The position numbers and the translations under genes were made by a program. Shown here piece by piece: positions 1 through 36,303 of a stretch of DNA of 64,000 nt (positions are counted from its first letter, which is position 1; each line of letters starts with the position of its first letter). The notes below the pieces were generated by a model. That model was not told the origin of the DNA and searched no databases. It saw only the letters and a program-made list of their open reading frames with translations. Source of the DNA: Parietichytrium sp. I65-24A (lineage: Eukaryota; Sar; Bigyra; Thraustochytrida; Thraustochytriidae); assembly GCA_012862575.1 (NCBI GenBank), contig BLSF01000002.1, positions 558,001 through 622,000 of the forward strand, in the 5' to 3' direction.

Positions 1-674
1 AGCATTATCTCACGTCGTTGACAGCATTTGGCGACAATGACGAGCAAGACGGACGTTGAAGACAAGAAGGCGATGCTCAGAGGAATGAGAAGAGACTCTC
101 CTTCTTCATGCCCATGATCTTCTTCCGCATGAGCGCAGACGCCATCAAGACAAACTGATCCATCCTCGCAGTCAAATCCGCTCTTACAAGCATAGCCGTT
201 AGGACACCTTGAACACCACGGTCCACCACAGTCCACATCTGTTTCGCCCAATTTCGTGCTTCGATTTACAGTGCCGCCAAAGTTGTCTAATTGCCCATTT
301 GCACATCTATCAAGAGGAGACCCTTCCAGCTCAACAGCAAAATAGTTTTCCGTGCACAGCACTGCCAGCACTGACCCAAGAGAATCTGTTCCACAGTCAT
401 CGAAAGGCGCAACGCCGCAAAGAACACTAACGTCTGCCCCATCAAGCTCGGTCGCTACACTCGAAACCGTTGCATTGCATGAAAAATAGTCGTTTTCGTC
501 GCTATAAGTGCAGGCATTGACGCACGTAGAATTTCCTGGGTCTTCACACTGCGATGCTTGGGCCATCACGTAAAGCAGCTTGGACTGCGAGTCAGGACAA
601 GCTCCATTTCCGACTTGAAGGCTTGCAACTGCAACAGCCCCAGCTAAGCCCACTCTGCCAATGCGTCCAAACAT
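1..674 (-). CDS. Cys-rich secreted or type I membrane protein, cut by the window edge
   Basis: An open frame starts at the ATG at 674 and runs off the left edge without a stop, giving 224 residues. Residues 1-25 form a signal peptide (MFGRIGRVGLAGAVAVAS, then a small-residue cleavage region before ACPD). The mature part holds about 18 cysteines, including a dense block near residues 145-185 (DCGGPWCSRC, DCEDG, CLDGVC) that resembles small disulfide modules. A hydrophobic segment (LLIPLSIAFLSSTSVLLVIV) follows at about 195-215, then a basic start of a tail (KCCQRRE), so the protein is probably a type I surface protein. An in-frame stop at 711-713 upstream of the ATG supports this start. I recognise no family. 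The open frame, signal peptide and anchor are direct observations; surface location is inferred. Confidence 0.68.
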   Translation of the reverse strand, partial: MFGRIGRVGLAGAVAVASLQVGNGACPDSQSKLLYVMAQASQCEDPGNSTCVNACTYSDENDYFSCNATVSSVATELDGADVSVLCGVAPFDDCGTDSLGSVLAVLCTENYFAVELEGSPLDRCANGQLDNFGGTVNRSTKLGETDVDCGGPWCSRCPNGYACKSGFDCEDGSVCLDGVCAHAEEDHGHEEGESLLIPLSIAFLSSTSVLLVIVAKCCQRREIM

Positions 675-10799: not shown

Positions 10800-12839
10800 T
10801 CACAAATCACTCTCCGAAACTTGAACTCGCCGCTCCTCCTCCTCAGCTTCGGAAATGATTGCATTCTCGCCAACGCGATCGAACTGCAACGGTACCTCAC
10901 GAACAACACTGCCTTGGTCGTCCAAAATGTAAGCACGAATCTCTGTGTATCCAAAAGACAGTGCGCAAGTCATGTTTCGCATACTGCCTTTCTCCACAGG
11001 CACCACAATGCGAGCCAATTTGATGCAACCTGGCTCAGTGACATATTCCACCTTTTGAGCGGTGGATGCGTAGATATCGAACTTGATGGTGTTCTTGTTT
11101 TTGGAAGCAGGCGCGAAAGTGTGCTTGTATCGCTCGTTCACGTCTACGAGCTGTCCACGCACAACAAATGTTTTGAAAACGTCGCGGATAAAGTACTCTC
11201 GGCGCTCGTCGTCGTACTCCTTGTGCTTGATGTGAGGTTGCTTATTGTGCGTGCCGCGAATAAACGGGATTGTGACCTTGACACCAATCGTCATGCGTGC
11301 TCGACGCGAGTTAATAATACGAGGATACATGCCGTATTTAACAGCGCCCTTCATCACCGCCAGTCCGGGCGCCTTCGGGGTGTGAACGTGGGTCTTCTTG
11401 CCAAACTTGTGGCGCAAACCGAACTGAAGATACTCGCATGCGCCTAGCCCGCCATACAGCATGATGTGATCCACGCCTTCCTCGAGATTGTCTCGAATGA
11501 CCTCTTCGGTCTTTTTAAGGATTCTGATTATCGTAGTGTCAAAGCAGTAGTGCAGCAACCCGGGCGGCACGACCAAGACAGTTGGCGCACGGCCAAGTTG
11601 TTTCTTAAACTCGAGCCGAATCGGCTTGCTGTTTGGTCCCTTGGCCTGGGCCTTTTGTTGCGCCTGGTTATTATATGTCAGCACAAGGTCTTGCAGCTTG
11701 ACCCGCAACTCGGCGAGTGTCACTTCAAGGTTAAGGTACTTGGGCCGGACCCTCGCTTTGCTCGAGAAGTGGTCAGCAGAGACGCTACATTTAATCTTCT
11801 CCCAGCCATCCTGTAGCTCCATCCTGGCATCAGGCTGCTTCCAAACGCGCTCAAAGTTTTCATCACCGAGAAATTGCTTTAAAAATCTGTGAAAGCGCGA
11901 GTCGATATTTCGCGCCCCCACCGGCACGCCCATCGGCGGCAACAATTGCGACATCGACACCTCGACTTCCTCGGTATCTTCGCGACGAGTGTTTACTATG
12001 CGGATGGCGCTAATATCCACAGAACCTCCTCCACAGTCTAGACAAAGGACCTTGTCGTTTTCGCGCAACTTGCGTTTCTTCTCATGCTCAAAGATCGTTT
12101 CTGTCCAAACAGCAGCACACTCACTCTCCAGCGCAATTACCAAGTCGCCAGAGAACTCGTCGCGTATAATTTCTGCCCGCTCTGCGGCACGGCGCATGAA
12201 TTGTTTATCCGACTCGCGCCACATGGACGGCACGGTGATGACCCACAGAATATCTTCCACGTTTAAAGGCACCTTCGTTTCCTGGAAAATGCGTTGCAGC
12301 GCTTGCTCCTTCATGCGACGGAGAATCGCTGACACTATTACAAAGTACGAGATTCCATCGACCTCTTCCGCCTCGTCCAGCACATTATGTTTTTCCTCAA
12401 AAAGCCGCATCTTCACGTCCTGGTCAATGTATATATAGTCGTCGTCCCAACTAGTTTGCTCCGTGGCCGAGAACTTGGTCAGGAGCTCCTTCCCTGCCTG
12501 CGCCTTGAGGTAGAAATTCCGCGCTTCCAGTCCAAACTCTATCAGCTGGTTGTCGCGCTTCCTGAACAGCACGCACGTGGGCTCCTTCTTCTTAACTACG
12601 CGAATTTTCTTGTCCGACGTCAATGCGTACGCGAACCCCGTGTTGGTCGTTCCAAAGTCAATGCCCACCACGCACTTTTTGTGAATCGCGGGGCCATCCA
12701 GGAACGCCTCGTACGTTGGCTCCTCGTCCGCGCTGGACGAATACGACCGCGACGAAGGATCCCCGAAACTATTACTGCTGTCCGTCGTGCTCCCGCGCTT
12801 CCGCAGCGTCATGCGACCGAGGGACTTGCGCAGCGCCAT
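10800..12839 (-). CDS. HSPA12-type Hsp70-like ATPase
   Basis: A 679-residue protein of the divergent Hsp70 branch typified by human HSPA12A/B (about 675-685 residues). The actin-like ATPase fold is shown by phosphate-1 loop VVGIDFGTTNTGFAYA (about 57-71), VPSMWRESDKQFMRRAA, ALESECAA, phosphate-2 loop DCGGGSVDI and the GGLGACEYLQ adenosine segment. As in the family there is no canonical Hsp70 substrate-binding lid. The N-terminal 45 residues are Ser/Arg-rich. I chose the ATG at 12839 (MALRKS); an in-frame ATG at 12863 would add eight residues. Open frame continues upstream to 13211 but lacks a further ATG and is Arg/Gly-rich leader. Its coding segment 11106-11318 has a broken duplicate at 20795-21014. 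Confidence 0.9.
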   Translation of the reverse strand: MALRKSLGRMTLRKRGSTTDSSNSFGDPSSRSYSSSADEEPTYEAFLDGPAIHKKCVVGIDFGTTNTGFAYALTSDKKIRVVKKKEPTCVLFRKRDNQLIEFGLEARNFYLKAQAGKELLTKFSATEQTSWDDDYIYIDQDVKMRLFEEKHNVLDEAEEVDGISYFVIVSAILRRMKEQALQRIFQETKVPLNVEDILWVITVPSMWRESDKQFMRRAAERAEIIRDEFSGDLVIALESECAAVWTETIFEHEKKRKLRENDKVLCLDCGGGSVDISAIRIVNTRREDTEEVEVSMSQLLPPMGVPVGARNIDSRFHRFLKQFLGDENFERVWKQPDARMELQDGWEKIKCSVSADHFSSKARVRPKYLNLEVTLAELRVKLQDLVLTYNNQAQQKAQAKGPNSKPIRLEFKKQLGRAPTVLVVPPGLLHYCFDTTIIRILKKTEEVIRDNLEEGVDHIMLYGGLGACEYLQFGLRHKFGKKTHVHTPKAPGLAVMKGAVKYGMYPRIINSRRARMTIGVKVTIPFIRGTHNKQPHIKHKEYDDERREYFIRDVFKTFVVRGQLVDVNERYKHTFAPASKNKNTIKFDIYASTAQKVEYVTEPGCIKLARIVVPVEKGSMRNMTCALSFGYTEIRAYILDDQGSVVREVPLQFDRVGENAIISEAEEEERRVQVSESDL

Positions 12840-14481
12840 GTTTGCGCGCTCCACGTGCCGCATCCCCTCACTCCCCTCGCTCCCCTCCCTCCTCGTCCCC
12901 CGCGCGCACCCTCTGCGTACCCTCCGCGTACGCCTGTGTACGCGCGGACACTCTCCGTCGATCGACCGGGTGTGTTTTCTTGTGTTGTGTGGTGTTGTAA
13001 GTCCAAGTACCCGTGCGCGCACTCCTCCTCCCTCTCCCCCGGGGAAGCACGCCTCTGCGCCACGTCCGAGTACACTCCGCGCACTGGCAGATAGCGACTC
13101 TCGCGCCTGCAGCCGTCCGCGCGCACCCCTTCTAGCTGTGGGACGGAGGCAATACTGTATGTCACTCTGAGAGAGAGAGAGAGAGAGAGAGGGAAGGAGC
13201 TGAGAGGACAACTTGTGCTTTGCAGGGGACTAGCGCGAGTAGGTAGCCAGTGGTAGTGGAGTGGTGGGAGAGACGCAGGAGTCGCAGGAGGAAGGAAGAA
13301 GTGCTAGGCGAGAGTAGCAGTAAACGCTGGAAGGCGCTACCGGCGGAATGCTGTGAGGAGGGAGGAGGTGTGTGCGTGTGTTGTGAGGGGGACCTGAGAC
13401 TAACTGTAAAATGTGTGTGTGCCCACCATATCATAATCTCTTTGTTTTCGCTAGTCATCAATTAGGACATTGTCTACCGGAGCGTCCGGGTTACTAGTGT
13501 CATAACAAAAGGGATAAGAGACTCTCCAGAAGAAAGGATGGATGGAAAATGAGTTTTAGCTATTGACTGCTAAGAAGCAAGGAAGACTTTTCTGAATTCT
13601 GTTAGTGTGAGGGCATTCGAGCGAGGGAGGTGACTAGGAGTATATATTCCCTACATAAACATCGAAAAGGTGGAAGAAAGGATGAGAAGAGGAACTCCTT
13701 TCTTACTCCGGCGATAACCCAAACCAGTAGGGTTAAGAATGGCACTGAGTAACCCCTCTTATGACAGCGCCTATCTGCTCTCTCTCATTCCACGTGAACA
13801 GATAGAAATATAACAAGAACACATACGATTTGGATAAGGAATACAATAAGAAGAAGAATAGAATCGAATAGGAGAGTGAGCCAAAAAGAATAATTTACAT
13901 CATTCATTCTCTGACTCAATCTGTGCTAAAGGAACATGACAGTGCGTACCGACAAGTATCTCCAGCTTGAGATCTGTATGGATGTCTCCAAGTTCTGTTC
14001 TGCTTTTATGGCAGGGAAAATAATTCTGGGTTCTGGCATGTGAGTTCTGATTCTGGTTTCTGGTTCTGTTCAATGACATGACATCATCCATCGTCAGCGT
14101 TCGTGAACCAGCCGTTGTTCGCTTGTGCATGACATCATCCGTCGTCAGCATTCGTGAATCAGCCGTTGTTCACTTGTGCATGACTTCCCTTCTCTTCATC
14201 CATTGGTCCATTGCTCTAGCTAGTAGCTAGGGGTAAGCTCTGAACATTTGGGACATACGAATGTGCTCAGTGACTTCAATGAACATTCAGTGATGGGGTA
14301 GCATTGGGAAACCGTTGATGGGCCGAATGACCGAATGTCGGCGAAAGAGGTCGGTCTGCAGACCCGAAACAGCACATAGAGGAGAGAAGCTGGTCAACGG
14401 CGTTGGTAGCAGAAGTAGCAGAGCTGCAGTTGCAGTGTTGAAGAGCAAGAGGAAGAGCAACGCGGAGACAGAGACAAGACG
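12840..14481. other. Divergent promoter region, HSPA12-type / secreted protein
   Basis: A 1.6-kb region between two divergently read genes. It holds a (GA)n tract at 13169-13192 (CT on the HSPA12 sense strand), a degenerate TTCTG cluster at about 14025-14070, the 51-bp tandem duplication at 14078-14179 and a CTAGCTAG word near 14218. Short frames here have no recognisable domain. Confidence 0.5.
14078..14179. repeat. Tandem duplication, two 51-bp units
   Basis: Units 14078-14128 and 14129-14179 match at 47 of 51 positions by eye; both run from ATGACATCATCC to TTGTGC. A third copy begins (ATGACTTCCC) and breaks off. The 51-bp length is a multiple of three, but a stop falls in the minus-strand frame through the repeat, so I do not call it coding. 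Confidence 0.85.
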
Positions 14482-23776: not shown

Positions 23777-25669
23777 TTACAATGTAGCATTCTGGTATGC
23801 GGCAAGCTCTTGACGAAGCTTTCGCATAATCGTCCGTTCAGACGTAAACTCAATACCAAGACCAGCTGGACCGAGCTCGCACGCTTGAATGAATTTCTCC
23901 AACTCAGGATCGGGGTCTGACATCGAGAGCGAGTCCAAAGATGTAAGCTCTCCCAAGTCCGTGCCCCCAGCAAGGTCCAGCGCGTGCGCATAAAAGCCCT
24001 TCGACAACTCCTCGAGTTGATCAGCAGGCACTGACCACGGCATTCGGAGAATGTTTCCTTCCAAAAATGGAGCCAAGCTGATTGGCCCTTGAGATTGATG
24101 GGCGCCAGGCTGCAGTGCTCTACCTGAAGGAACCTTGAAAGGATTAATAGTCACAAGCTTAGGTTCTGAAGGGCCAATACCGCGCGGACTATCGCTGTTG
24201 CTTAGCAACGTCTCTTGCGCAAACTGTTTGCCCTGGAGAGGCGGGTTTGCCTGGAGTGCCCCGGCCAAAGCACTAAAAGCTGGCGAACTATGACCACTTG
24301 GTCGAGACGCGTACGGCCTCGCAGTTGAATTGCTCGACATGGTGGAGTTGCTTAGGGATTTGCTGCCTGACGAAAATATCGCAAACGGGGGGGAATCCGC
24401 CGCGTCAGGCTCACGATTTCCGTAGAACAGTTGCACGGATGATGCCAAGGAAGCTGTAAGAGAAGCTAAACTCGCTCCCGACGGAGATACGTACGTTGAA
24501 CCGCTTGGCAGAGTTACAAGGCGCGTCGGAAGTGAGTGTGGATGCATTCTGTTGGTGAATCTGCTCCCGCTGCTGGAGCTCTGTCTTAACTCCAAAGAAT
24601 CAGTGGTAGGAAACGCAAAAATGCTTTGATCTCCGCTCGCTCCTTTTTTGGTAGCCGACTGCCGCATTGAGCTTCTGAACGGAGAGGGCGTACGAGTTTT
24701 CGCTCCGACGCGAGGTGAAGAAGGCTCATTTTTCAAGAAGTCATTCTCTAAACCAGAATGAGGGCTTCCAGAGACTCGCAGACCTACGCGAGGCGGCAAC
24801 GAGTGAATATGCTGCAAGCGGTGGGCATCTTGATAGCTGCGGGAGGCCTGTCTTGGTTGTGGAATTGGCCGCGGACCGCTTGTGGCGCGTAGCAACGGCT
24901 CTGGATGCTGTTCTTCGGAGGGAGAGACGCCGAAAAGTTCAGGCTCCTCGTGCACCCCAATCTCCCGAGAGATTTGAGGACTGTCCGACTTCTTCACCGA
25001 TGGGGAGCCACTCTCCTTTTGGCCGGTATAACCACTGATGATCCTTGCGATGCCGCCTTTGGGTGTGTGCTCGCTGCTGACCACAGGCGCTTTGCTCAAA
25101 AGCGGGAAAGCTCGCCGAACTTTGCTCATGTCATGTAAATAGTCCACGCTAACTTGCACGGTTCCGCCTTCAGGCGCAGTCACAGCTTTCATACCAAATT
25201 GTGTCCTATCTAGCGCCGCTTTTGGGAGTGGTACGACGTTCTCGCCTCTCGCATATGTCTTAACTCTCAATACGGATGCCGCAGCGCTGCCAACCTCCCG
25301 GAACAACTCACTAGCCGGGAGCATGACCAGCAGCGCGAAAAGCGATCGCAGCATTACCTTTGCTTTCCGCGACACCTGTACCGATCTTTTCGCTGAACTA
25401 TGCTCCCTCTCTTCTCTGGTCAGTACAAAGGTCCATCTTTCCAGTACAACGGCCGGTCCATCCGCGTCCTCCAATACCACGTCCAAGCCCGCACAATTGT
25501 GCCATCCACCACGTCCGGGGCTTTGCCCTACGGTGCCAATCGCCTCAGTCGCATCAGCCGCTCCAATGGCACCAATCGAGCTGTTTGATCTCTCCCCAAG
25601 CACCAACAGCGCCACCGCTGCATTTAGCCCACCGTGTTCTTCGTCGTCAAGCACCACATCGGCGCGCAT
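23777..25669 (-). CDS. ATG13: ATG13-like autophagy initiation protein
   Basis: A 630-residue protein. Residues about 1-190 match the ATG13 HORMA domain: LERWTFVL, the long helix VSRKAKVMLRSLFALLVMLP followed by ASELFREV, then LRVKTYARG, FGMKAVTAPEGGTVQVSVDY. This helix (RSL.xLxRxLPAxxLxR in the family) is the most diagnostic part. Residues about 200-540 are Ser/Pro/Gly-rich and probably disordered, as in all ATG13 proteins, where the region is phosphorylated and binds ATG1/ULK. The last 90 residues have two short acidic helices (LEELSKGFYAHAL; LEKFIQACEL). The HORMA N-terminus looks short, so a missed 5' exon is possible. The gene converges on CYB5D1 with a 165-bp gap. Confidence 0.75.
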   Translation of the reverse strand: MRADVVLDDEEHGGLNAAVALLVLGERSNSSIGAIGAADATEAIGTVGQSPGRGGWHNCAGLDVVLEDADGPAVVLERWTFVLTREEREHSSAKRSVQVSRKAKVMLRSLFALLVMLPASELFREVGSAAASVLRVKTYARGENVVPLPKAALDRTQFGMKAVTAPEGGTVQVSVDYLHDMSKVRRAFPLLSKAPVVSSEHTPKGGIARIISGYTGQKESGSPSVKKSDSPQISREIGVHEEPELFGVSPSEEQHPEPLLRATSGPRPIPQPRQASRSYQDAHRLQHIHSLPPRVGLRVSGSPHSGLENDFLKNEPSSPRVGAKTRTPSPFRSSMRQSATKKGASGDQSIFAFPTTDSLELRQSSSSGSRFTNRMHPHSLPTRLVTLPSGSTYVSPSGASLASLTASLASSVQLFYGNREPDAADSPPFAIFSSGSKSLSNSTMSSNSTARPYASRPSGHSSPAFSALAGALQANPPLQGKQFAQETLLSNSDSPRGIGPSEPKLVTINPFKVPSGRALQPGAHQSQGPISLAPFLEGNILRMPWSVPADQLEELSKGFYAHALDLAGGTDLGELTSLDSLSMSDPDPELEKFIQACELGPAGLGIEFTSERTIMRKLRQELAAYQNATL

Positions 25670-27139
25670 GGCTCCACGACATCCGCTGCCTAATGTTCGC
25701 CTGAACGCAGATCAATGGACGTTGCAGACACGACGCTTTTGACGCGCCGCACGCAACAGCGCAATGGGCCTAGGGTTTCTCGCCGACCGATACTTGCGTT
25801 CTTTCGCAACTATGGACAACCGCACAGCCTGTGCGACACGCTGCCGGGCCCTGGCCTCGGAGACGAGGATCGAAAGCAAGCGTGATAAGATGTAAACCTC
25901 TTGACTCTTGCGCAACGAGGTGCGTGTGCGAGAGATGTGCGTTGTGAGTTATTTGTTTCCCGAAAGCGTGCTGCGACGGTGCTTGTCGTCCCTGGGACAG
26001 ACGAGTGTGTTCAGATCTTTCCTCCCTCGCTCGGCTGACCAGAGTTCAGAAAGGCGCGCTCTCGACCCTCGCAAACAACGTCCTTCTCCACAGTTTTCGC
26101 GTCTCTCGCCGACAACACCGCTCGCTCAACTCGCGGTCTGCCGAGCGTGATTGTGTATTTGCGTGATTGTGTGTTTGCGTGGTTGCGTGGTTGGAACAGG
26201 AACTTCCTCGCGCCACGATGAACGCTTCCCGTCGCTCTGTCTAGGCCTCTGCGCTAGGCCATTTAGCTCTGCTCTCTCTCTGCTCGGAGCGAAGGTGTTT
26301 GGAATGTTAGAGAACGCAGGCGTTGTGGGTGGGTGATGATGGTGGGTGGGTGGTGCTAGTCACGGTGATAGGCAGAGGGGTAATACTCCCGCTGTTGGTG
26401 AGGCTATTCACAAGCGAGGCGATGGAAGAAATGAAGCGAACTAATGAGTTGAAATGACGAAAGTTACCAGCATTGACGCTGCAGTCCCGAGGGCTGTTGG
26501 GAACCAGTGCCGTCAAATGTCATCAACTATTATTTATTTATGTGATTTGAAAAGAAGAGTTCGAATTTGCAAAGACGAAAGTTGAGACTCGACGCGTCTT
26601 TCTCTGCTACGCTACGTTTATTAGGAGACCACCTAACTACTGAGATGTGAGTACAGACTACGCTTATCCAGGTAGTAGCTTGAAAGTCAAAAACATTTCT
26701 TCACCCTTCCTAGCTAGGATACACCGGTACTCAGTACACATGTGCACTCCCCGACTAGGTAGTCACATAACAGTGGCAAACGGCTCCTACTGGTAGAGCT
26801 AGCAAAGGTGCTGGGTCGCTCAATTCAAAATGATGAACAGAGAGTCGTTCGTGCCCTAGCCGGTAGAACGCCTTATTAGTATCACGTAGTATGTGTGCGG
26901 TACCAAACGTGAGTAGTACTCGCTGAGGGTGGTAGTTATAGGAGTTGAAAAACTGAGCGAGGACTGCCAAGTACTCGAGCACCGGTTCTTGTACGGAAAG
27001 AGGCCGCGAGTACAGCTACTGTGCTTAACGCATACACGTATGCGTATCATTGAGTTCAGGTTCCGTCTCGCGGAGAGGGCAAGCAAGACCAGTTTGCATA
27101 ATTTGGGTGGGACTTGGAAAAGTTAACAACAAAACAACA
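25670..27139. other. Divergent promoter region, ATG13 / coiled-coil gene
   Basis: Nearly 1.5 kb with no convincing frame. The part next to ATG13 is more GC-rich and holds short repeats (GTGATTGTGT/GCGTGGTTGC at 26150-26190; GGGTGGGTG at about 26320-26350). A CCTAGCTAGG palindrome lies near 26708-26717. Confidence 0.45.
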
Positions 27140-27910
27140 ATGGGCACCACGGCGGGAGACATAAACGCGGCGGAAGAGCAGGGGTTAATGCGAGACATAC
27201 TGGATAACGTGGTGCTGGACGTTCGGCGTTACGAGAGGGACATTTTGGAGAGGAATGCTGCGTTGGAGAGGGAAAATACCATGCTGCGCAGCTTTAAGAA
27301 GAAGGCGGTTTCCAAAGCCAGCGCAGTGGAGAGGAGAAGGGTGAAGGCGCATCGGAGGGAAGATAAATTGAAGGAGCTTGAGAGGAAGTTGGATGCTCGC
27401 GAGAAGCAGTTAATCGCGCGAGAGGAGAAAGTTGTCGGCCTGAACCAAACGGCTTTGAAACGTACGTTAGATAGGCGATCGGTGCAGACCATCTTGGAGT
27501 ACATGGTCCGCTGCGAAGAGATCCTGGGGCAACCTGAGCGCGCTGCATCGGTGAGAAAGGGGATAAGTGAACAAGACTCTTTGGAGGTAGTGAAGAGAGT
27601 AATCCCGGAGCACCTTGATGAGCTTGAAGCGACATTCGAGAAGACTATCGTAGGGTACCAAAACGAAATTCGATCCATGGAGAGTAGAGCAGAATCTAAG
27701 GATGAATCGAAATCGTCAAATATCGCGGCAGCTGCGAAGATCCGCGAGAAAAAGCTGCAGCGTGAGAAGGCAGAACTATTGCAAAATTTGGTTACTGTCG
27801 AGAATTTGTGTTCAAAATTACGAAACGGCCAAGATTTCCAGCAAAGTGCAGAACTAGATATGATGGCAAGTATTTTAGAAATAGCGCGCACACGCCATGC
27901 AAGCACTTGA
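27140..27910 (+). CDS. Coiled-coil protein, family unknown
   Basis: A 256-residue, highly charged protein starting at the ATG at 27140 (an open frame to 27050 starts with TTG). Heptad-like helices run over about 28-95 (RRYERDILERNAALERENT onward, with an Arg/Lys-rich core) and about 160-235. Residues 110-150 form a shorter, probably globular segment (TILEYMVRCEEILGQPERA). No catalytic motif is visible. It converges on the kinesin-9 gene with a 69-bp gap, which is the tightest pairing in the window, but this does not prove a shared role. A cytoskeletal or basal-body function would be a guess. Confidence 0.78.
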   Translation: MGTTAGDINAAEEQGLMRDILDNVVLDVRRYERDILERNAALERENTMLRSFKKKAVSKASAVERRRVKAHRREDKLKELERKLDAREKQLIAREEKVVGLNQTALKRTLDRRSVQTILEYMVRCEEILGQPERAASVRKGISEQDSLEVVKRVIPEHLDELEATFEKTIVGYQNEIRSMESRAESKDESKSSNIAAAAKIREKKLQREKAELLQNLVTVENLCSKLRNGQDFQQSAELDMMASILEIARTRHAST

Positions 27911-27979
27911 CCAGCCTCATTGGACAGGCGCTTACAGGATGTGAACTATGTCCGCTAGAGGACGATGAAATACGCGAGA

Positions 27980-30067
27980 TTAACCACCCAGCTGTTGTGT
28001 ACACCACTTTTCAAATTCGTTTGCCAGGTGCTCGCGGCACACCTTGAGAGCTTGAGCAGAGAATGCAGCCTCGGATTTAAGCTCCTTGAGCAAATCCAAG
28101 CCTTGCTTGTATTCACGCTTCATCTCTTTCAATTCTTTAAGCTGCTCAGCTCCGCCCGGGCCTTCTTGATCGATACTGGCCAATATTTGGTCAAGTGCCT
28201 CCTTTCTGTGGCTTAAATCTGCTTTTAACTCTTTTGAGCGCGATTTCATTTCGAGCACGCTTTTCTTCGCATCCGATATGTTTTCATGCAGCTCTTTTCC
28301 GATAGTAACTTTCGTCTTGAACTCCTCAAAAAGCGCCTCGCGATCGGGAGAAGCCACGACGGTGTCCCTCGGTCTGTCCGCCTCGTCTTCTCCGCGAGAG
28401 ACAGAATCTGGCGAAACACTGTCTTCCTCATCCTGGTTAGACACAAACGACAAACCCGGAGCAGGACGAGTTGCTGTGCTTCCAATTCTCGCTCCCGTCC
28501 GCGCTTCTTCCCTACTCGCGCTTCTGGAGAGATTTGATGGTCGCTGTTTCGTCTTTCGGAAGACTTGGGGCTCTGGGATACTGGGAGACTCTCGGAAGTG
28601 AACTTCGCTGTTCACCAGCTGATTTGTCCCGCGGTTCATCATCGGGCCCTTCTTTTGCTCCTCGAGTATCAAGTCTCGCATTGCATTGAACATGGCAAAC
28701 ATGTGCCGAGCGCTGTGCGCCTTCACGTGCTTGAGATCCCCATTTGCAACAAAGGACTGGACCTCAGAACGAATGGCTTCCCTTGCCTCCGCACTATAAG
28801 GTTGATGCGTTGTTGCAAACTGCGATAGCTCCAGCTGTCCACATTCGTTTAGCTTTGCAAATTCATCCCGAAGAGCTAATTCCGCTCGAAGTTGCTGGAC
28901 CTCCTTTTTATACTCATTCAAAATCGCAGAATCTGGACCAGATTTATCATTGCGCACTGGCGTGTTCTTAATCCTCATCATTCTTGCGGCAAAACGAAGC
29001 GTTGCAAGAGTTTGCTCAGTATTCGCTTCGTGTGGCCATATACAAGCTATGAGCAGACTATTGCAGTTGCCTCCAAGAGAATCTTTCAAATAGTGTGTAA
29101 GATGACTTTGGCGGTAGGGAATATGCTCCCGTTGCTTTTCAGCAAGGGCTACGACAACTTGCTCCAGGAACGAAAGCGACTTGTTGATAGCTTTGGCTTC
29201 TTGCAGCACAACGCCTGTGGAATTCGTCTTGAATATTCTTTCTGATCCAGCCAAATCGACCAAATTCAGCTTGGCGCTTCTCATTACCGTAGTTAAACTC
29301 CCGATCGACTCATCTAACACATTGTGCTTGCCTTCTACGTAAAAAGTGAGGATGCAATGTGATCTTGTCGATGAGTAGTTGAGCTCATGTGACGCGATGA
29401 CGCGGTTCGCCTCCCCTTCCAGGAGGCAGGCAAATGCCTCCTCTTCATTTCGCACGAGCCGTCTCGTCAGTCCGTTCATGACCGTCCCTCCGTGCTCATC
29501 TGAGACAAGCTGCATCTGCCCCATATGCCTCCTCCCATTCGCGCTTGCATCACTGTCCAATAAGTCAAAGAGCTGCTCGTTGTAGACTTCAAGCCAAGAC
29601 ATGCGAACGTGCACATCGCCATCTACCTTTTCAACTTCTCGAAACAGGGCTGCCACTGTTCTTGCGGCTAGCCCTTTATCCTGTTGCCTTCCAAACATCG
29701 TGTGCGTCTTGCCCGCTCCCGTCTGCCCATACGCCATTACCGTCCCATTAAAGCCGGCCACCGCCCCGCGCACAGCATCGAGAGCGCAAGCTTCGAACAC
29801 TTGCTGCTGTGAGCTTTCCGCTGCAAGAACGCCGTCCATTTCAAAGTCCCACGTCTCCTCTTGTCCGGCGCCGCGCCCGTTCGCGTGCCTGGCTTCCCGC
29901 TCCACATGCACCTTGATCCCATGTTCTCCCAGCTCTACGCGCCCGTGCCTGCCTGCCGCGGAGCTCGCCATCAGAGCTGCAATTTTTGGTCCATCTTCAG
30001 CAAGCACTGGGCGCGGGCGAACGAGCACCCGCACTCGGTTTTGCCGCCTCGACTCTGCGCCGGCCAT
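27980..30067 (-). CDS. KIF9: Kinesin-9 family motor (KIF9/KLP1-type)
   Basis: A 695-residue motor protein. The motor domain (about 9-365) has RVRVLVRPRP at the start, P-loop GQTGAGKT at 114-121, switch I NYSSTRSH and switch II DLAGSE, so ATPase activity should be intact. Kinesin-9 features include INKSLSFLEQVVVALAEKQ, HIPYRQSHLTHYLKDSLGGN and the conserved neck-distal segment ELALRDEFAKLN...YSAEAREAIRSEVQSF. The C-terminal coiled coil (LFEEFKTKVTIGKELHENI, then KSVLEMKSRS) also matches KIF9. Kinesin-9 motors act in the axoneme central pair of motile cilia and flagella. A Ser/Arg-rich linker lies at about 500-590. No intron interrupts the gene. Confidence 0.94.
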   Translation of the reverse strand: MAGAESRRQNRVRVLVRPRPVLAEDGPKIAALMASSAAGRHGRVELGEHGIKVHVEREARHANGRGAGQEETWDFEMDGVLAAESSQQQVFEACALDAVRGAVAGFNGTVMAYGQTGAGKTHTMFGRQQDKGLAARTVAALFREVEKVDGDVHVRMSWLEVYNEQLFDLLDSDASANGRRHMGQMQLVSDEHGGTVMNGLTRRLVRNEEEAFACLLEGEANRVIASHELNYSSTRSHCILTFYVEGKHNVLDESIGSLTTVMRSAKLNLVDLAGSERIFKTNSTGVVLQEAKAINKSLSFLEQVVVALAEKQREHIPYRQSHLTHYLKDSLGGNCNSLLIACIWPHEANTEQTLATLRFAARMMRIKNTPVRNDKSGPDSAILNEYKKEVQQLRAELALRDEFAKLNECGQLELSQFATTHQPYSAEAREAIRSEVQSFVANGDLKHVKAHSARHMFAMFNAMRDLILEEQKKGPMMNRGTNQLVNSEVHFRESPSIPEPQVFRKTKQRPSNLSRSASREEARTGARIGSTATRPAPGLSFVSNQDEEDSVSPDSVSRGEDEADRPRDTVVASPDREALFEEFKTKVTIGKELHENISDAKKSVLEMKSRSKELKADLSHRKEALDQILASIDQEGPGGAEQLKELKEMKREYKQGLDLLKELKSEAAFSAQALKVCREHLANEFEKWCTQQLGG

Positions 30068-30498
30068 TTCCCGCCCTTATCGTGGCAGCTCTCGGGCCTT
30101 CGACTCGAAGAGCGTCTCCACTGTTTTCTACAACGAGCTTTCGCCCTCAAAGTCGTGCGCCTCTTCCGAAACGCAGTCTCTCTCTCCAGTATTCCGCACG
30201 TCGGACGCTCCGCTCCGTTACAAGACCTGCCTTCCTTCAAAGTTTCTCAGTCAAATTCTGCAGCAGCAACTCGCTTTTCGTAGTGGAGAGTTTTGGAGGA
30301 CGTTGGCAGCGAGAGAGCTGGTCAGGCAATGATGATAGTAGTAATTTGAACGGACACTTGCGATAGCAACGACTACTACAGTGAAGCAGGGATGAAGGGG
30401 ATAGCAATGGAGAGTGGCGATGGAAGAGATGTGGAGTGAAAGAGGGCCGGCTGGCAGGAGCTTGGAGAATTGAAGGGGAACAGTATATTTGCGCGAGA
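30068..30498. other. Spacer between kinesin-9 and SETD3-type genes
   Basis: About 430 bp upstream of kinesin-9 and downstream of the SETD3-type gene, both on the minus strand. It is the only place for the kinesin promoter. No repeat or motif stands out. Confidence 0.4.
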
Positions 30499-31878
30499 TT
30501 ACTTATTTGCTTCGAGTTCAAGGAGATGGACATCCGATGCCAAGAGCTCGCTGGTGAGCTTGGAAGCGATAGATGACAAGCTAGCATCTTGCGCACGGAT
30601 GCGTTCGATTGTAGCTTTGCGAGAAGTTAAGCAACGCTCTCTGAGCGACTTGAGCAAGTTCTTAGCAGCTGCTTCGAGCTCGTCGGACACTTTGACTATT
30701 GAACCTTCCGAGGAATCGTTGGAGAGCTGGGCGCGGAGAATGTGGGCGACGTCTTCTTTGGAGGCCACGAGGACACGCGCAAACTGCAACGCCACATCGT
30801 CTTCTGGAGCAATGCTGCACCAACCAGGAGAGAGTTTGGCGTTTCCTAACAAGCGCTCGCGGAGCTTCTTCATGGGGTCTGCAGGGTCGAGGTCGAGGGC
30901 AACAGTCACAGAATGGTGCGGATTGAGACCAGTCTCTGGCACAAAACCGCTATATACCAACAAGTCTACGTTGGAGCGAGGTCCGTAAAAGATTCTAAAT
31001 TCTTCCTTGTCCGAAAACGCCCGCTTTGCGCTACATTCAAGCTGGTCAGCTTCAGTGCAAAATGACGTGGAAAACTCGCCATCTTCATGGTTACACATGT
31101 CAAAAACAGGAATTAGCGCAAGACCCATTTCCTCTGGGTTTGAAATCTTCGGCAGAGGGTTTTGTCTAGTAATCGCGATGCACATCGCCCAAATGAAACT
31201 GTCAAAGCTGAATTCCAGAGCGTCGCGCAAAGAGGTCGGCAGCGAGCGCTCAAGGTGCACATAAGCCATGACCCAATTAAACATTCTCTTCAAGATGACG
31301 TCACCCGCCTCATTACCTTCAAGGTGGTGGAGCTCGTCCTTGGTCCAAAGAATTGGGATACCGGGGAAGCTGCGCGGCAAAATGTCGATATAAGGCGAAA
31401 ATGGAGACGCGCTGCCCTTGACCTTCTCAAGCATGAGATTCAATGCGAGACATACCATAGGAGTGGTGTTCAGGAGACGGTCCTGCGCAGCGAATTCAGA
31501 CAGCTCTCCACAATTTCCGGACTCGACCGACTCCACGTCAATCATGAGTTTACGCGGAATCGCAAAAGCAAGATCGTTGTGCTCGATAACTCCATTGCAT
31601 CGTAATCCATTGCAGCCCAACTCATCTATAAAACCAAACTCAACTTTGGAGAGGTCTACCCCTTCCTTTTCCAGCCAAGCTCGAAATACATCGAAAGGAG
31701 CAGCTCTGTCTGTATCCGCGGCCTCTGCGGCGCTCTTGCGCCACCAAACTGGTCCGTTGCACAGTGCGCTCAGGGTATCAAAGCTCTCTGTCGCGAGGTC
31801 CACTTGCTCCTTAAAGCTGTGAGATCGCACGCCTCGCAAAGCGGCCAACAGTGCGTCGTGCAAAATAGGCTCAGTCAT
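30499..31878 (-). CDS. SETD3: SETD3-type SET-domain protein methyltransferase
   Basis: A 459-residue protein starting at the ATG at 31878; the frame further up begins with GTG. The split SET domain covers about 75-315: AIPRKLMIDVES (106-117), SQDR-like AQDRLL, ILPRSFP, RQN at 238-240, ALIPVFDMCNH (254-264, the AdoMet-binding core) and IFYGPRSN (296-303). The C-terminal Rubisco-LSMT-type substrate-binding domain follows. These match SETD3, which methylates a histidine of actin, better than generic lysine methyltransferases, because RQN and the spacing to DMCNH are shared. Actin His methylation is therefore the likely role, by family knowledge. Alternative: another SETD3/LSMT-class lysine enzyme. 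Confidence 0.87.
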   Translation of the reverse strand: MTEPILHDALLAALRGVRSHSFKEQVDLATESFDTLSALCNGPVWWRKSAAEAADTDRAAPFDVFRAWLEKEGVDLSKVEFGFIDELGCNGLRCNGVIEHNDLAFAIPRKLMIDVESVESGNCGELSEFAAQDRLLNTTPMVCLALNLMLEKVKGSASPFSPYIDILPRSFPGIPILWTKDELHHLEGNEAGDVILKRMFNWVMAYVHLERSLPTSLRDALEFSFDSFIWAMCIAITRQNPLPKISNPEEMGLALIPVFDMCNHEDGEFSTSFCTEADQLECSAKRAFSDKEEFRIFYGPRSNVDLLVYSGFVPETGLNPHHSVTVALDLDPADPMKKLRERLLGNAKLSPGWCSIAPEDDVALQFARVLVASKEDVAHILRAQLSNDSSEGSIVKVSDELEAAAKNLLKSLRERCLTSRKATIERIRAQDASLSSIASKLTSELLASDVHLLELEANK

Positions 31879-32223
31879 TCTTGCGGCACAGTCGCAGCTT
31901 TTCGACGACACGCTCTTCTCCGGCACCGCCCCTTGCCGAATTTGTCTGTCTTCTACACGCTTTTCCGCGCAGAGCTTTCGTGTGTGTCGGGGGGCGAGGT
32001 CTCATACAATTTGTTTCCGCGCACTCTGCCTGCCACACACGTCCAGGGACTATGCTTGAGTCTAGAATGCGCCTATGCAGGGATGGATTTGTGTGCAACT
32101 GACTGTGAGTAGTAGATTGTGCCGCCAACATTTTTTTGCGGGTTGGAGGAGTTGGAGGAGAAATCTTCTTTTTCACATGAATTAGGTCTGACAGGTTATG
32201 GACAACAAACGGTTGTAGGCACT
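31879..32223. other. Spacer, promoter of SETD3-type gene
   Basis: A 345-bp interval between the Hsp70 stop and the SETD3-type start, both on the minus strand. It contains one GACTGTGAG word at 32101-32109. No other feature. Confidence 0.4.
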
Positions 32224-33921
32224 CTAGCTCAGAAGCTGAGTGGTTTCGTCGTCGTGGTCGACGATGGGGGGCTTTGGCAGGTAGATCTTGGCAGCGAAAA
32301 GGAGAGCTATGAGAAGGACAAGGACAGCTGAAAGTAACACCATGTTTTGGGCCTCATCTTCGTGTCTTGCAGACGGATTGTTCTGCCGGCTGTCTTTCCG
32401 TCTCTTCAATGTTTCGGAACCTTCGGCCTCTTCAATGGTATCCGCGTCCACCATCAAGGTTCCATCGGCATCTACTGTGAACGTGACATGAATGATCGCC
32501 TCCCCGGCTTTGAGTTTACTACCGTTTCGCACAGGAAAATCAATGCAATCCACCCAGCGGTTATCTCGCGCTTTTTCCTCTTCGCCCTCGAATATGTCAA
32601 TAGTGATAGCTCGCTGATAATCTGAGTGGGTCGTGAATTCTTTGGTGGCAGACGAGGGAAGCTTTGAGTTCCTGGAGAGAACTACAGAAAACGCACCCGA
32701 GCCAGTCTCCAAACCTATACTGTACGGCAAGGCATCGATCATGAGAACCTTAGAAAGCACATAGGAGTCGACGCCGGACAGAATCGCTGCTTGAATCGCC
32801 GCACCCTGTGACACCGCTAAATCTGCACGAATGTTGGTGCAGAGCTCCTTGGAGTTTCCGAACTCTTCCTTGATAACCTCGCGAAACCACGGCATTTCGG
32901 TGGAGAGCCCGACGAGAACGACCTCGTCGAAATCCTTGGCGCTCAATTTGGCGTCCTGCAATGCTCTCTTTACTACTTTTCGCACCCTTGCTTTCAAAGG
33001 CTCCACAATTCGCTCCAACTCGCTCCTGTCAATTGTGATATCGTCGGTAACCCATGCTTGATCCTGCGTCGAGAGCTTTATCTTAGCTTCCTCGCAGGCG
33101 CGCTTTAGAGATTCCTTCTCTTCTGGCAAAACGTCGCGAAGCTTCTTGTTCTCTTTTCGTAGAACATGCTCCATCAGGAGGGTATCGACATCATCGCCGC
33201 CGAGAGAATTATCCCCACTTAATGCGATCGCTTCAAATTTGCCGCTGTCAATCTGCAAAAGGGACACGTCGAACGTCCCGCCGCCCATATCTACGATTGC
33301 GACTTTTTTGCGGCCGGCAACAAAAAGTCCGTATGACATTGCAGCTGCCATTGGTTCGCTCAAGAGGCGCAAAACGTGCAGACCAGCGGATTCTGCAGCG
33401 CTCTTCGTGGCATTGCGCTGCGCCTCGTTGAAATACGCAGGTACGGTAATCACCGCGCGGGTGACCTTTTTGCCCGAGAAATCCTCAGCGATCTCTTTGA
33501 GCTTCAAAAGGATCGAGGTGGCTACGCTTTCAGGCGAAAGACCAGACGAAGAACTGAAAATTCCAGACACAGATTGTGAGCCTGATGCGCCCACAAGAAT
33601 TTGGCCATCGCCCTTCTTTGCCTCAAATATCTGATAGGGGTACCGGTCCTTGTCATCTGGGGTGAGTTCATTGAATCGTCGTCCAATCAACCGTTTTGTG
33701 CTCGTAATCAGGGTTCCATGCGCTGGATCTTTTGAGTATAGCTCGAAGGCGGTATCACCCACCCCCATCACTGTGTTGCTTCCATCGACCAGAAGCGCAG
33801 ATTTAAGCGTCTTCTTCCCGGTCACCTTCCATTTGATTGTCTTGGCTCGAGCCCTATCATCCAACCACAAGGAAACGCACGAGTTTGTTGTTCCCAGATC
33901 AATTCCAACCTTCTCGCCCAT
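32224..33921 (-). CDS. Hsp70 with C-terminal membrane anchor in place of the lid
   Basis: A 565-residue Hsp70. The ATPase domain has GIDLGTTNSCV (phosphate 1), VPAYFNEAQRNATKSAAESA, RLLSEPMAAAM, DMGGGTFDVSLL (phosphate 2) and LGGDDVDTLL. The adenosine motif reads VVLVGLSTEMP where most family members have VGGSTRIP, so nucleotide affinity may differ. A beta-sandwich substrate domain follows (MIDALPYSIGLET through VDADGTLMVDADT). After about residue 515 the usual helical lid is missing; instead come a charged linker, a hydrophobic segment at about 526-544 (MVLLSAVLVLLIALLFAA) and a 21-residue tail (KIYL...TTQLLS). This is tail-anchor architecture. An in-frame ATG at 33975 would add MAEIRAHVRRSALLRWKL, an Arg-rich leader. 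The (GTT)n tract upstream is in frame but has no ATG. Confidence 0.88.
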   Translation of the reverse strand: MGEKVGIDLGTTNSCVSLWLDDRARAKTIKWKVTGKKTLKSALLVDGSNTVMGVGDTAFELYSKDPAHGTLITSTKRLIGRRFNELTPDDKDRYPYQIFEAKKGDGQILVGASGSQSVSGIFSSSSGLSPESVATSILLKLKEIAEDFSGKKVTRAVITVPAYFNEAQRNATKSAAESAGLHVLRLLSEPMAAAMSYGLFVAGRKKVAIVDMGGGTFDVSLLQIDSGKFEAIALSGDNSLGGDDVDTLLMEHVLRKENKKLRDVLPEEKESLKRACEEAKIKLSTQDQAWVTDDITIDRSELERIVEPLKARVRKVVKRALQDAKLSAKDFDEVVLVGLSTEMPWFREVIKEEFGNSKELCTNIRADLAVSQGAAIQAAILSGVDSYVLSKVLMIDALPYSIGLETGSGAFSVVLSRNSKLPSSATKEFTTHSDYQRAITIDIFEGEEEKARDNRWVDCIDFPVRNGSKLKAGEAIIHVTFTVDADGTLMVDADTIEEAEGSETLKRRKDSRQNNPSARHEDEAQNMVLLSAVLVLLIALLFAAKIYLPKPPIVDHDDETTQLLS

Positions 33922-35170
<1,249 letters not shown>

Positions 35171-35798
35171 ATGAAGCTGTGTTCCTGGATCACTGTTGGG
35201 CTGGCTGCCTTGATGCTCGCAGAGCCAAGCGTTGCTGCAGATGCCAAGCCAAAGGATTGCGAAGGTGAGTTGAGTTGACCTGCGTTGCCGAGTGCGGACA
35301 TGGAGACCTGGCTGGACTGACGACTGTACGGTGCGGTGGTTATTCATTTGAAATCGCGAAGTTTGCATCAGCCTGTTGGAGCGGGTGGAATCGCAATTCA
35401 AGTCTGCGGCGAAGATGGCAAAGGAGAACAACGAGAAGTTCGATGGAATGACCTCGATTGAGTCCATCATTGACACAATCTGTGATGGGGTGACCTCACA
35501 GACAGACAAGAAAGTATGCTATTATCTTTTGCCGATCAAGAGAAAGGTGTCGCAGCCTATGAGCAACTATGCTCCTCCAGATAGGGTGTGCAAGAAGCTG
35601 AAGAAGGAGTCTCCGGAGTTGTGTTCAGTGCGCGAGGCGGTGAAGGTTGAAAAAGGCAAAACTAATTACAAAGAGCTCAAGATTCGCGACCTCAAGAAAA
35701 TTCTGATGGATCGCGGAGTCCAGTGCAATAACTGTATCGAGAAAGGCGACTTTGTCAAGCGTTGTGAGGAGACCGAGGATCTTCATGACGAGCTCTGA
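35171..35798 (+). CDS. MANF: MANF/CDNF (ARMET) homologue with C-terminal HDEL
   Basis: Two exons, 35171-35264 and 35362-35798, with a 97-nt intron (GTGAGT donor), give 176 residues. Residues 1-23 form a signal peptide (MKLCSWITVGLAALMLAEPS). The splice rebuilds DCEVCIS, the family start. All eight MANF cysteines are present: DCEVC, TIC, VCYY, RVC, ELC and the CNNC pair (CKGC in human MANF), plus one extra Cys near the end. The N-terminal saposin-like domain and the C-terminal SAP-like domain (LKIRDLKKILMDRG) are both visible. The protein ends in HDEL, a canonical ER retrieval signal, where animal MANF ends in a weaker RTDL. Family role: soluble ER-luminal stress protein that binds the Hsp70 BiP. 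Confidence 0.93.
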
Positions 35799-36303
35799 GC
35801 GTTTAGAACGCATTCAAATGCACATTTTTTGTGAAGTAGTTTTCTCATTCCTTGCTCCAGTTTTAATCGCCTCTTTTTCGTACTCGAAAGGGTTGTCTCA
35901 TCGCCTCACCGCTGGCCGCAACCGCAACCTCATGGGTTTTGCTTCTTCTCCCGAGCCCTTCGGACGCTATTTGACAGCTCGATATGATGACAGAGAGGGC
36001 GGGTTGTATTGTCTCACATCCCTCGCTCCACGAAAGACCATGGACGCCATTGTAGCCTGGCCTAAACACAAGTGATGACACGCTAGTACCTCTCTGGCAC
36101 TGGCGGTGGTCATGATTGTTGCGAATAGAAAATCATCAGTGTTTTATTTTGAATTATCGGACGAAACATTTTAGTCAACATTTAAGGCGGCAAAAAATCT
36201 TACGAAAGGTTTTCAGCGCCGTACGTTGTGGAACAGTACCTACAGTATATCACCCGGCAAGCAAAACAAAAACGTCAATGTATTTAACAGGACATGTGAC
36301 TTT
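35799..36303. other. Spacer between convergent MANF and C1D genes
   Basis: About 500 bp holding both 3' ends. A 107-codon frame at 35752-36075 overlaps the MANF end and has no domain. Nothing else seen. Confidence 0.4.

Follow-up and report, generated by a model that had tools for sequence, protein, structure and literature searches.

How an Hsp70 might function with a membrane anchor in place of its helical lid is the question raised by one gene in a 64,000-nucleotide stretch of the Parietichytrium sp. I65-24A genome (contig BLSF01000002.1, positions 558,001 to 622,000 of the forward strand; the whole stretch is called the window here, and its own numbering is used throughout). As a rule, Hsp70s come to membranes by way of membrane-bound J-proteins or through signal-sequence import. 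The gene, encoding what we call the lidless Hsp70 (P0001), occupies 32224..33921 on the minus strand with its stop codon included, and its stop-free translation of 565 amino acids runs from 33921 to 32224, exactly where an earlier reading of the letters alone (the sequence-only reading) had placed it. The genome that we searched comprises 42.5 Mb in 172 contigs, with the gene content of a microbial eukaryote. The architecture of the protein appears to be a new variant of Hsp70, and the mechanism that we put forward for it is a reasoned proposal to which we give about even odds.

The sequence-only reading had named an ATPase domain and a beta-sandwich substrate domain, and both were recovered by profile and by model. 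The Pfam HSP70 match (E 4.1e-117; 392 bits against a cut-off of 20.6) runs over residues 5-512 of the protein and over positions 2-503 of the 599 in the profile, and since the match stops at 503 of 599, the lid part of the profile is left unmatched. With an ATPase domain that carries the phosphate motifs, the protein belongs to the Hsp70 superfamily, its adenosine motif being degenerate. An AlphaFold model (mean predicted local distance difference test, pLDDT, 86.4; predicted template modelling score, pTM, 0.84) contains the ATPase domain and the sandwich as far as a strand at residues 489-495, then a stretch with pLDDT below 50 (498-524) and a single C-terminal helix at 516-547 of modest confidence (block pLDDT 39-72). 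The nucleotide-binding (ATPase) domain, delimited by the model and by alignment to Hsc70 and BiP chains, takes up residues 1-384 (32770..33921; the features given here and below all lie on the minus strand), with most ten-residue blocks at pLDDT 87-97 and lower values at 111-130. The substrate-binding beta-sandwich follows at residues 398-495 (32437..32730), its last strand apparently absent by the model and by the end of the Pfam match at 503, and leads into a charged linker at residues 496-526 (32344..32436) that is probably disordered, given the pLDDT below 50. Compared with full Hsp70s, the last sandwich strand and the entire lid appear to be lost, the strand call being made by eye.

We looked for the missing lid outside the frame, as the sequence-only reading had held that a downstream exon with a lid would undo its proposal. 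Six-frame searches of the whole genome, using the Hsp70 profile or the protein as query, brought up no match to a lid alone next to the gene. Window positions 24001-36000 likewise gave no match to a lid profile made from 79 rows (best E 1, 5.8 bits); the same profile recovered the lids of four of the genome's own Hsp70s at E 5e-24 or better, a control that is not independent because these four were among the building rows. The SBD-alpha lid (the alpha part of the substrate-binding domain) of canonical Hsp70/DnaK is therefore absent by the end of the profile match, by the model and by the lid profile. A downstream lid exon is disfavoured, with no lid match near the gene and the next same-strand frame within about 350 bases. 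This next frame opens at 31926, or at the ATG at 31878, leaving a gap of about 300-350 bases, and contains a sub-threshold match to the Rubisco-LSMT substrate-binding domain (21.4 bits against a cut-off of 21.6).

What stands in the place of the lid is a hydrophobic segment, MVLLSAVLVLLIALLFAAKI, at residues 527-546 (32284..32343), which coincides with the model helix at 516-547 and is predicted by hydropathy to be a membrane anchor. The best 19-residue window (528-546) has a mean Kyte-Doolittle value of 2.82 and sums to -2.3 on the biological insertion scale, compared with a best value of 1.34 for windows starting before residue 510. When the whole protein was shuffled 1000 times, 2.82 was reached once. 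For comparison, we scanned bacterial and viral-collection sequences twice with an alignment of the genome's own Hsp70s, matching at least 594 and at least 599 stretches, with at least 591 and at least 566 of them coding for a relative. From each scan the top 80 were kept (160 loci); six without a usable frame were dropped and 154 were scored, 151 of them complete with a stop. None of the 151 complete relatives has a window of 1.6 or more after residue 480 (highest 1.18), and in 11 further bacterial Hsp70-like proteins the highest window after residue 440 was 1.52, in the locus L198. The C-terminal 70 residues matched no solved structure up to E 10. By its hydropathy, segment 527-546 is probably a membrane-inserted anchor. 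The sequence-only reading was thus right about lid loss and about a single strong hydrophobic segment in its place, by profile end, hydropathy and lid-profile search. Its charged linker, hydrophobic segment and tail were likewise recovered; the tail, put at 21 residues in that reading, has 19 by the boundaries used here.

The tail itself, YLPKPPIVDHDDETTQLLS, spans residues 547-565 (32227..32283) and is acidic by translation (net charge -3). It includes the string ETTQLL, which we take to resemble an acidic dileucine signal of the pattern [DE]xxxL[LI] and which, were the protein tail-anchored, would lie on the lumenal side. The protein has the make-up of a tail-anchored protein, namely a lone hydrophobic segment at 527-546 of 565 residues and no N-terminal signal.

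The orientation of the protein hinges on its N-terminus. The ATG at 33921 opens with MGEKVGIDLGTT, which by its sequence is the usual, canonical kind of Hsp70 start. An in-frame ATG at 33975 would prepend 18 residues, MAEIRAHVRRSALLRWKL, with no stop in between; this possible extension (33922..33975) scores -0.26 per codon in codon preference and is neither signal-like nor amphipathic, and by hydropathy it has no signal-like hydrophobic core. We considered a mitochondrial presequence starting at the upstream ATG and disfavour it, the helical moment being 0.18 compared with 0.53 for the presequence of the genome's mitochondrial Hsp70. Neither start version of the lidless Hsp70 has a hydrophobic N-terminal segment by hydropathy, and because an N-terminal signal is absent from both, tail anchoring is the simplest reading.

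Directly upstream of the start lies a long CAA/TTG repeat (about 34005-34165) of uncertain coding status, which is in frame with the Hsp70 start and stop-free, with no ATG before the repeat in that frame. A second, out-of-frame reading frame on the minus strand (33921-34184) has several ATGs and spans the two candidate starts; its stop, within the sequence TAATG, shares bases with the ATG at 33921. If transcribed, it might influence translation of the Hsp70. We scored codon preference in 29 twenty-codon blocks from 33948 to 32209. The 565-residue frame came top in 27 of the 29, those of the anchor and tail included, and it was not the highest in the block past its stop. The measure is weak because the upstream CAA/TTG repeat also gives a good codon score in the Hsp70 frame.

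The ATP site was compared residue by residue, with a Vibrio DnaK as the ruler in E. coli numbering, with the 154 scored relatives and with seven aligned paralogues from the genome, whose sequence ends mark them as BiP, two cytosolic Hsp70s and mitochondrial, Hsp110-like, HYOU1-like and HSPA13-like proteins. The adenosine motif VGLSTEMP (residues 337-344; 32890..32913) differs by G to L and R to E, reading VGLSTE for VGGxTR and GLSTE where canonical Hsp70/DnaK has GGxTR; this G and this R are kept in all 154 relatives and in all seven paralogues. The sequence-only reading had rightly singled out this motif as abnormal, but its rule of VGGSTR was too narrow, as 75 of the 154 relatives have M at the S position, 71 have Q and just 8 have S. 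Other positions changed in the lidless Hsp70 are K55 to F, R56 to E, E264 to R, D148 to E, N170 to S, T173 to M, M404 to G, A429 to H, V436 to I and R467 to A, together with the motif positions G342 (to L) and R345 (to E). Retained are the catalytic and phosphate-site residues T11, K70, E171, D194, T199 and D201, together with P143, R151 and D393 of the linker, and further R167, E267, K270, S274 and D431, of which R167 is presumably a J-domain contact position. By comparison, several catalytic or phosphate-site positions are altered in the genome's Hsp110- and HYOU1-like proteins, unlike the lidless Hsp70. The changes probably alter nucleotide handling, and E60 and R274 could make a charge-swapped pair.

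Not every change sets the protein apart. The four canonical Hsp70s of the genome retain K55, G342 and R345, and they too differ from DnaK at R56, at E264 and at positions 404 and 429 of the arch; one of the cytosolic Hsp70s departs from DnaK at D148 as well. The residues N170, T173 and D148 are kept in 153, 154 and 154 of the 154 relatives, respectively, and are altered in the lidless Hsp70. The interdomain linker KVLMIDA (residues 391-397; 32731..32751) retains the hydrophobic pattern and one Asp, the first Asp being K at a position with D in 152 of the 154 relatives. According to the excerpted account in PMC8215388, D431 and R467 are among the lid-latch residues. In the lidless Hsp70 the latch has lost R467, the position being occupied by A472 (R in 144 of the 154 relatives), and has retained D431.

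A second altered feature of the ATPase domain is the hairpin of subdomain IIB (residues 288-298; 33028..33060), which alignment with the genome's paralogues, HscA, HscC and DnaK places 9 residues short of that in the cytosolic Hsp70s and BiP of the genome and 13 residues short of that in DnaK and mitochondrial Hsp70. The matching hairpin in a cytosolic paralogue reads IEIDGLFEGVDFTSQIT. The hairpin of HscA is shortened by 10 relative to DnaK in the rows shown, slightly less than in the lidless Hsp70. As subdomain IIB is described as the target of all exchange factors in the portion of PMC4753570 used here, the shortened hairpin suggests that exchange-factor use is probably changed. In HscA itself, as given in part of PMC8215388, residues 290-295 are missing, and the absence of the K55-E267 and R56-E264 bridges is connected with an ADP release 700-fold faster than that of DnaK; with K55 lost and the same hairpin shortened, the lidless Hsp70 can be likened to it in a case for fast exchange.

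A hydrophobic anchor with an acidic tail points to the endoplasmic reticulum (ER) or the secretory pathway. We propose, with a probability of roughly 0.5, that the protein is a tail-anchored, probably ER-bound and cytosol-facing Hsp70 with an active ATPase, fast exchange and a weak grip on clients, driven by a membrane J-protein. On this view a divergent Hsp70, probably still competent in catalysis, has given up the lid and the last sandwich strand and is held at the membrane by its C-terminal anchor. Since an N-terminal signal is absent, the ATPase and substrate domains would lie in the cytosol and the short acidic tail in the lumen, with the ER or the secretory pathway as the most likely target membrane. 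ATP hydrolysis would be set off by a J-protein in that membrane. ADP would depart fast without a dedicated exchange factor because a salt bridge of the cleft, the arginine on the adenine side and the hairpin used by exchange factors are changed. The client grip would be brief and weak because the lid is absent, and the protein, cycling rapidly at a fixed place, might serve to hold exposed segments of membrane or secretory proteins. We infer insertion, orientation, target membrane, kinetics, partner and clients alike from the sequence. A bolder extension is that the membrane takes over the job of the lid, confining the client segment between the bilayer and an open cleft only a short linker away from it, so that the protein would act as a dedicated chaperone for inserting or extracting membrane proteins, with fast, exchange-factor-free turnover and with the tether moved from the J-protein to the Hsp70; this is a long shot.

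Several points weigh against the proposal of a cytosol-facing, rapid-cycling Hsp70. The G342 to L and R345 to E changes might abolish nucleotide binding rather than speed its turnover, and with N170, T173 and D148 altered, stimulation by J-proteins or allostery may be weak. The genome's canonical Hsp70s likewise lack the R56-E264 bridge and D431 is kept, so the changes do not all point in one direction. The best structural matches of the model are DnaK and BiP entries, many with ATP states in their titles, and this likeness to ATP-state DnaK may stem from the training of the predictor; the anchor helix is of modest model confidence. An upstream exon with a signal peptide would reverse the orientation of the protein. 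The bacterial and viral-collection scans, which have no bearing on recurrence among eukaryotes, yielded no relative with the lidless anchored form, and scans with the protein alone, which detect close relatives only, matched 37 and 8 stretches without a single relative. Selection on the anchor is thus unproven.

The same residue changes can be read as signs of a membrane-tethered pseudo-Hsp70, with poor nucleotide binding or no turnover, that serves the cytosolic Hsp70 as scaffold, partner or exchange factor in the manner of Ssz1/HSPA14 and Hsp110. Consistent with this are adenosine-motif changes unseen in the 154 scored relatives and the seven aligned paralogues, changed neighbours of the J contact, a long branch in the trees described below, and the loss of the lid as in Ssz1, a protein of little or no ATP hydrolysis by the partial account in PMC8476630. 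We regard such a protein as possible though doubtful, because every catalytic residue that we examined is retained, unlike in the genome's Hsp110- and HYOU1-like proteins, and the interdomain linker is still hydrophobic.

Two further explanations concern the ends of the gene, and we give little credence to either. With an upstream signal exon, the protein could be a lumen-facing type I protein whose cytosolic tail carries ETTQLL as a vacuole or endosome sorting signal. The tail string does fit the [DE]xxxL[LI] pattern, and lumenal-looking HSPA13, BiP and HYOU1 genes occur in the genome; yet the frame opens at the canonical Hsp70 start, neither start version has a hydrophobic N-terminal segment, and chance alone could produce a pattern of six residues in an acidic tail. 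Alternatively, the gene might be an Hsp70 in decay or of recent truncation, with a hydrophobic tail encoded by accident in the sequence that follows, as the long, fast-evolving branch and the occurrence in a single genome would allow; a BiP-like copy split in two frames (L005 and L011 on G000:C86), probably a decayed duplicate, suggests that decayed Hsp70 genes may occur in this genome. Against decay are the 565 open codons, the intact catalytic residues, a codon preference (a weak measure) for the frame through anchor and tail, and an exceptional hydrophobicity, reached in 1 of 1000 shuffles. The proposal of a tail-anchored, probably catalytically competent Hsp70 remains our preferred reading.

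The proposal involves a J-protein on the same membrane, and J-domain matches in the genome numbered 62, counted exon by exon (61 above the cut-off). One protein combines DnaJ and DUF1977 domains with a hydrophobic window of 2.08, which we take to be the make-up of DNAJB12/14. DNAJB12 and DNAJB14 are described, in the part of PMC3986390 consulted, as ER transmembrane co-chaperones of Hsc70/Hsp70, and we infer that the DnaJ-DUF1977 protein may partner the lidless Hsp70. A RAC_head search for a Zuotin partner gave no match, though the control genomes gave no signal either.

The kinship of the lidless Hsp70 was less straightforward. It is 37-41% identical to the four canonical Hsp70s of the genome, and no second copy was found in the genome, the next best match being 41% identical. 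Against NCBIfam models, two HscA models (380.2 and 377.6 bits) outranked the best DnaK models (363.3 and 349.6), the reverse of the ranking for the four paralogues scanned alongside, while a third HscA model (270.5) fell below all four DnaK models; every score fell short of its cut-off (for the curated HscA models, 377.6 vs 708.55, 380.2 vs 620 and 270.5 vs 743). In an identity comparison outside the loop, with 7 HscA and 12 DnaK rows, the ATPase domain was 39.0% identical to HscA and 40.8% to DnaK before the loop, and 37.7% and 42.3% after it; the sandwich was nearer to HscA (41.3% vs 36.5% to DnaK).

A 28-row tree placed the lidless Hsp70 as sister to a set of HscA, L198 and L014 with support of 47/78, and a split supported at 95/90 set 12 rows (the lidless Hsp70, HscA, HscC, L014, L197 and L198) apart from 16 ordinary rows that include the genome's four canonical Hsp70s. 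The lidless Hsp70, HscC and L197 are long rows in this tree, and the split, which speaks for something HscA-like, may also be caused by the common shortening of the hairpin or by long branches. A bacterial or organellar origin was considered as well: in an earlier tree without HscA, the lidless Hsp70 fell among the DnaKs of bacteria, next to L014 (90/84), its branch measuring 4.69. Descent from HscA is possible but not accepted here, in view of the low third model, the ATPase domain that is not nearer, the 47/78 branch and the long rows. Scoring 32 diagnostic columns gave 13 of eukaryotic type, 8 of bacterial type, 9 of other type and 2 gaps, a test that does not discriminate because the control rows were mixed too (6 eukaryotic and 9 bacterial for Hsp110, 9 and 4 for HYOU1, 8 and 9 for HSPA13).

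Several other features of the gene and genome are recorded here. Within the ATPase domain, the 9-residue insertion SQSVSGIFS (residues 115-123; 33553..33579) faces a gap in all seven aligned paralogues and is a low-confidence loop in the model, its placement depending on the alignment. The window holds a second, very divergent Hsp70-like gene at 10800-12974, HSPA12-like by eye (Pfam HSP70, 27 bits). Elsewhere, a sandwich-only frame (L012:1336-1866, G000:C35; Pfam HSP70 389-501, 95 bits) has neither ATPase domain nor lid and adjoins a frame rich in FYGxTT repeats, the two possibly forming one intron-containing gene; the repeats recall, as we take it, microtubule-binding SAXO/STOP-like proteins. 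A frame of 711 residues (L010:511-2643, G000:C5) combines a degenerate Hsp70 ATPase domain (GGGMR motif) with weak C-terminal TPR matches.

The lidless anchored architecture is unusual, and we saw it in one genome. Searches of the open-licence literature returned no report under the phrases lidless, tail-anchored, transmembrane or integral membrane Hsp70, and no title announcing a 'membrane-anchored Hsp70'. Canonical Hsp70/DnaK proteins (Hsc70, BiP, mitochondrial Hsp70) have in common with it the ATPase fold, the catalytic residues, the linker and most of the beta-sandwich, and it differs from them by the missing lid, the lack of an EEVD- or HDEL-type end, its own predicted anchor, VGLSTE and the short IIB hairpin. 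HscA likewise has a shortened IIB hairpin but retains the lid, and the highest hydropathy after residue 440 in seven HscA frames was 1.03, unlike in the lidless Hsp70. With its HscA-like IIB shortening, the protein makes nucleotide exchange free of exchange factors directly testable in a eukaryotic protein.

Among Hsp70s without a lid, Ssz1 lacks SBD-alpha, hydrolyses little or none of the ATP that it binds and has Zuo1 as its tether to the ribosome, as described in part of PMC8476630. The lack of a lid is common to Ssz1 and the lidless Hsp70; compared with that description of Ssz1, the catalytic set is intact here and the tether is the protein's own predicted anchor. No chain named Ssz1 was among the 60 of 163 solved-structure matches listed. 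HSPA13/STCH is likewise a shortened, non-canonical Hsp70 tied to the secretory pathway. Hspa13 lacks the substrate-binding domain and is conserved across Eumetazoa by the excerpt of PMC9691929, whereas the lidless Hsp70 has a substrate sandwich and no N-terminal signal and thus falls outside this class. The same genome contains an HSPA13/STCH-like gene (L008:1390-2676, G000:C2:1029980; 428 amino acids) with an N-terminal hydrophobic segment and no substrate domain, which is noteworthy given the Eumetazoan conservation described in that excerpt. In the HscC system, an Hsp70 is likewise brought to the membrane by a tail anchor, through the tail-anchored J-proteins DjlB and DjlC, the anchor being on the J-protein there and on the Hsp70 here, as far as the system is set out in the part of PMC8215388 cited.

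Engineered lidless Hsp70s, namely Mycoplasma genitalium DnaK lacking SBD-alpha and lid-truncated BiP (5obu, 5obv, 7a4u), have this domain content too, the lid being absent in both cases. These entries are laboratory truncations of ordinary Hsp70s, by their titles and by general knowledge, and are free of any anchor. Judged by sequence, the combination of a sandwich, a catalytic set and an anchor of its own without a lid matches none of the lidless classes compared, Ssz1 being taken by its description. A natural exchange of lid for anchor, if true, would ask how far the lid is needed once a chaperone is held near its clients, and the lidless Hsp70 would then be the natural counterpart of the lid-truncated laboratory constructs.

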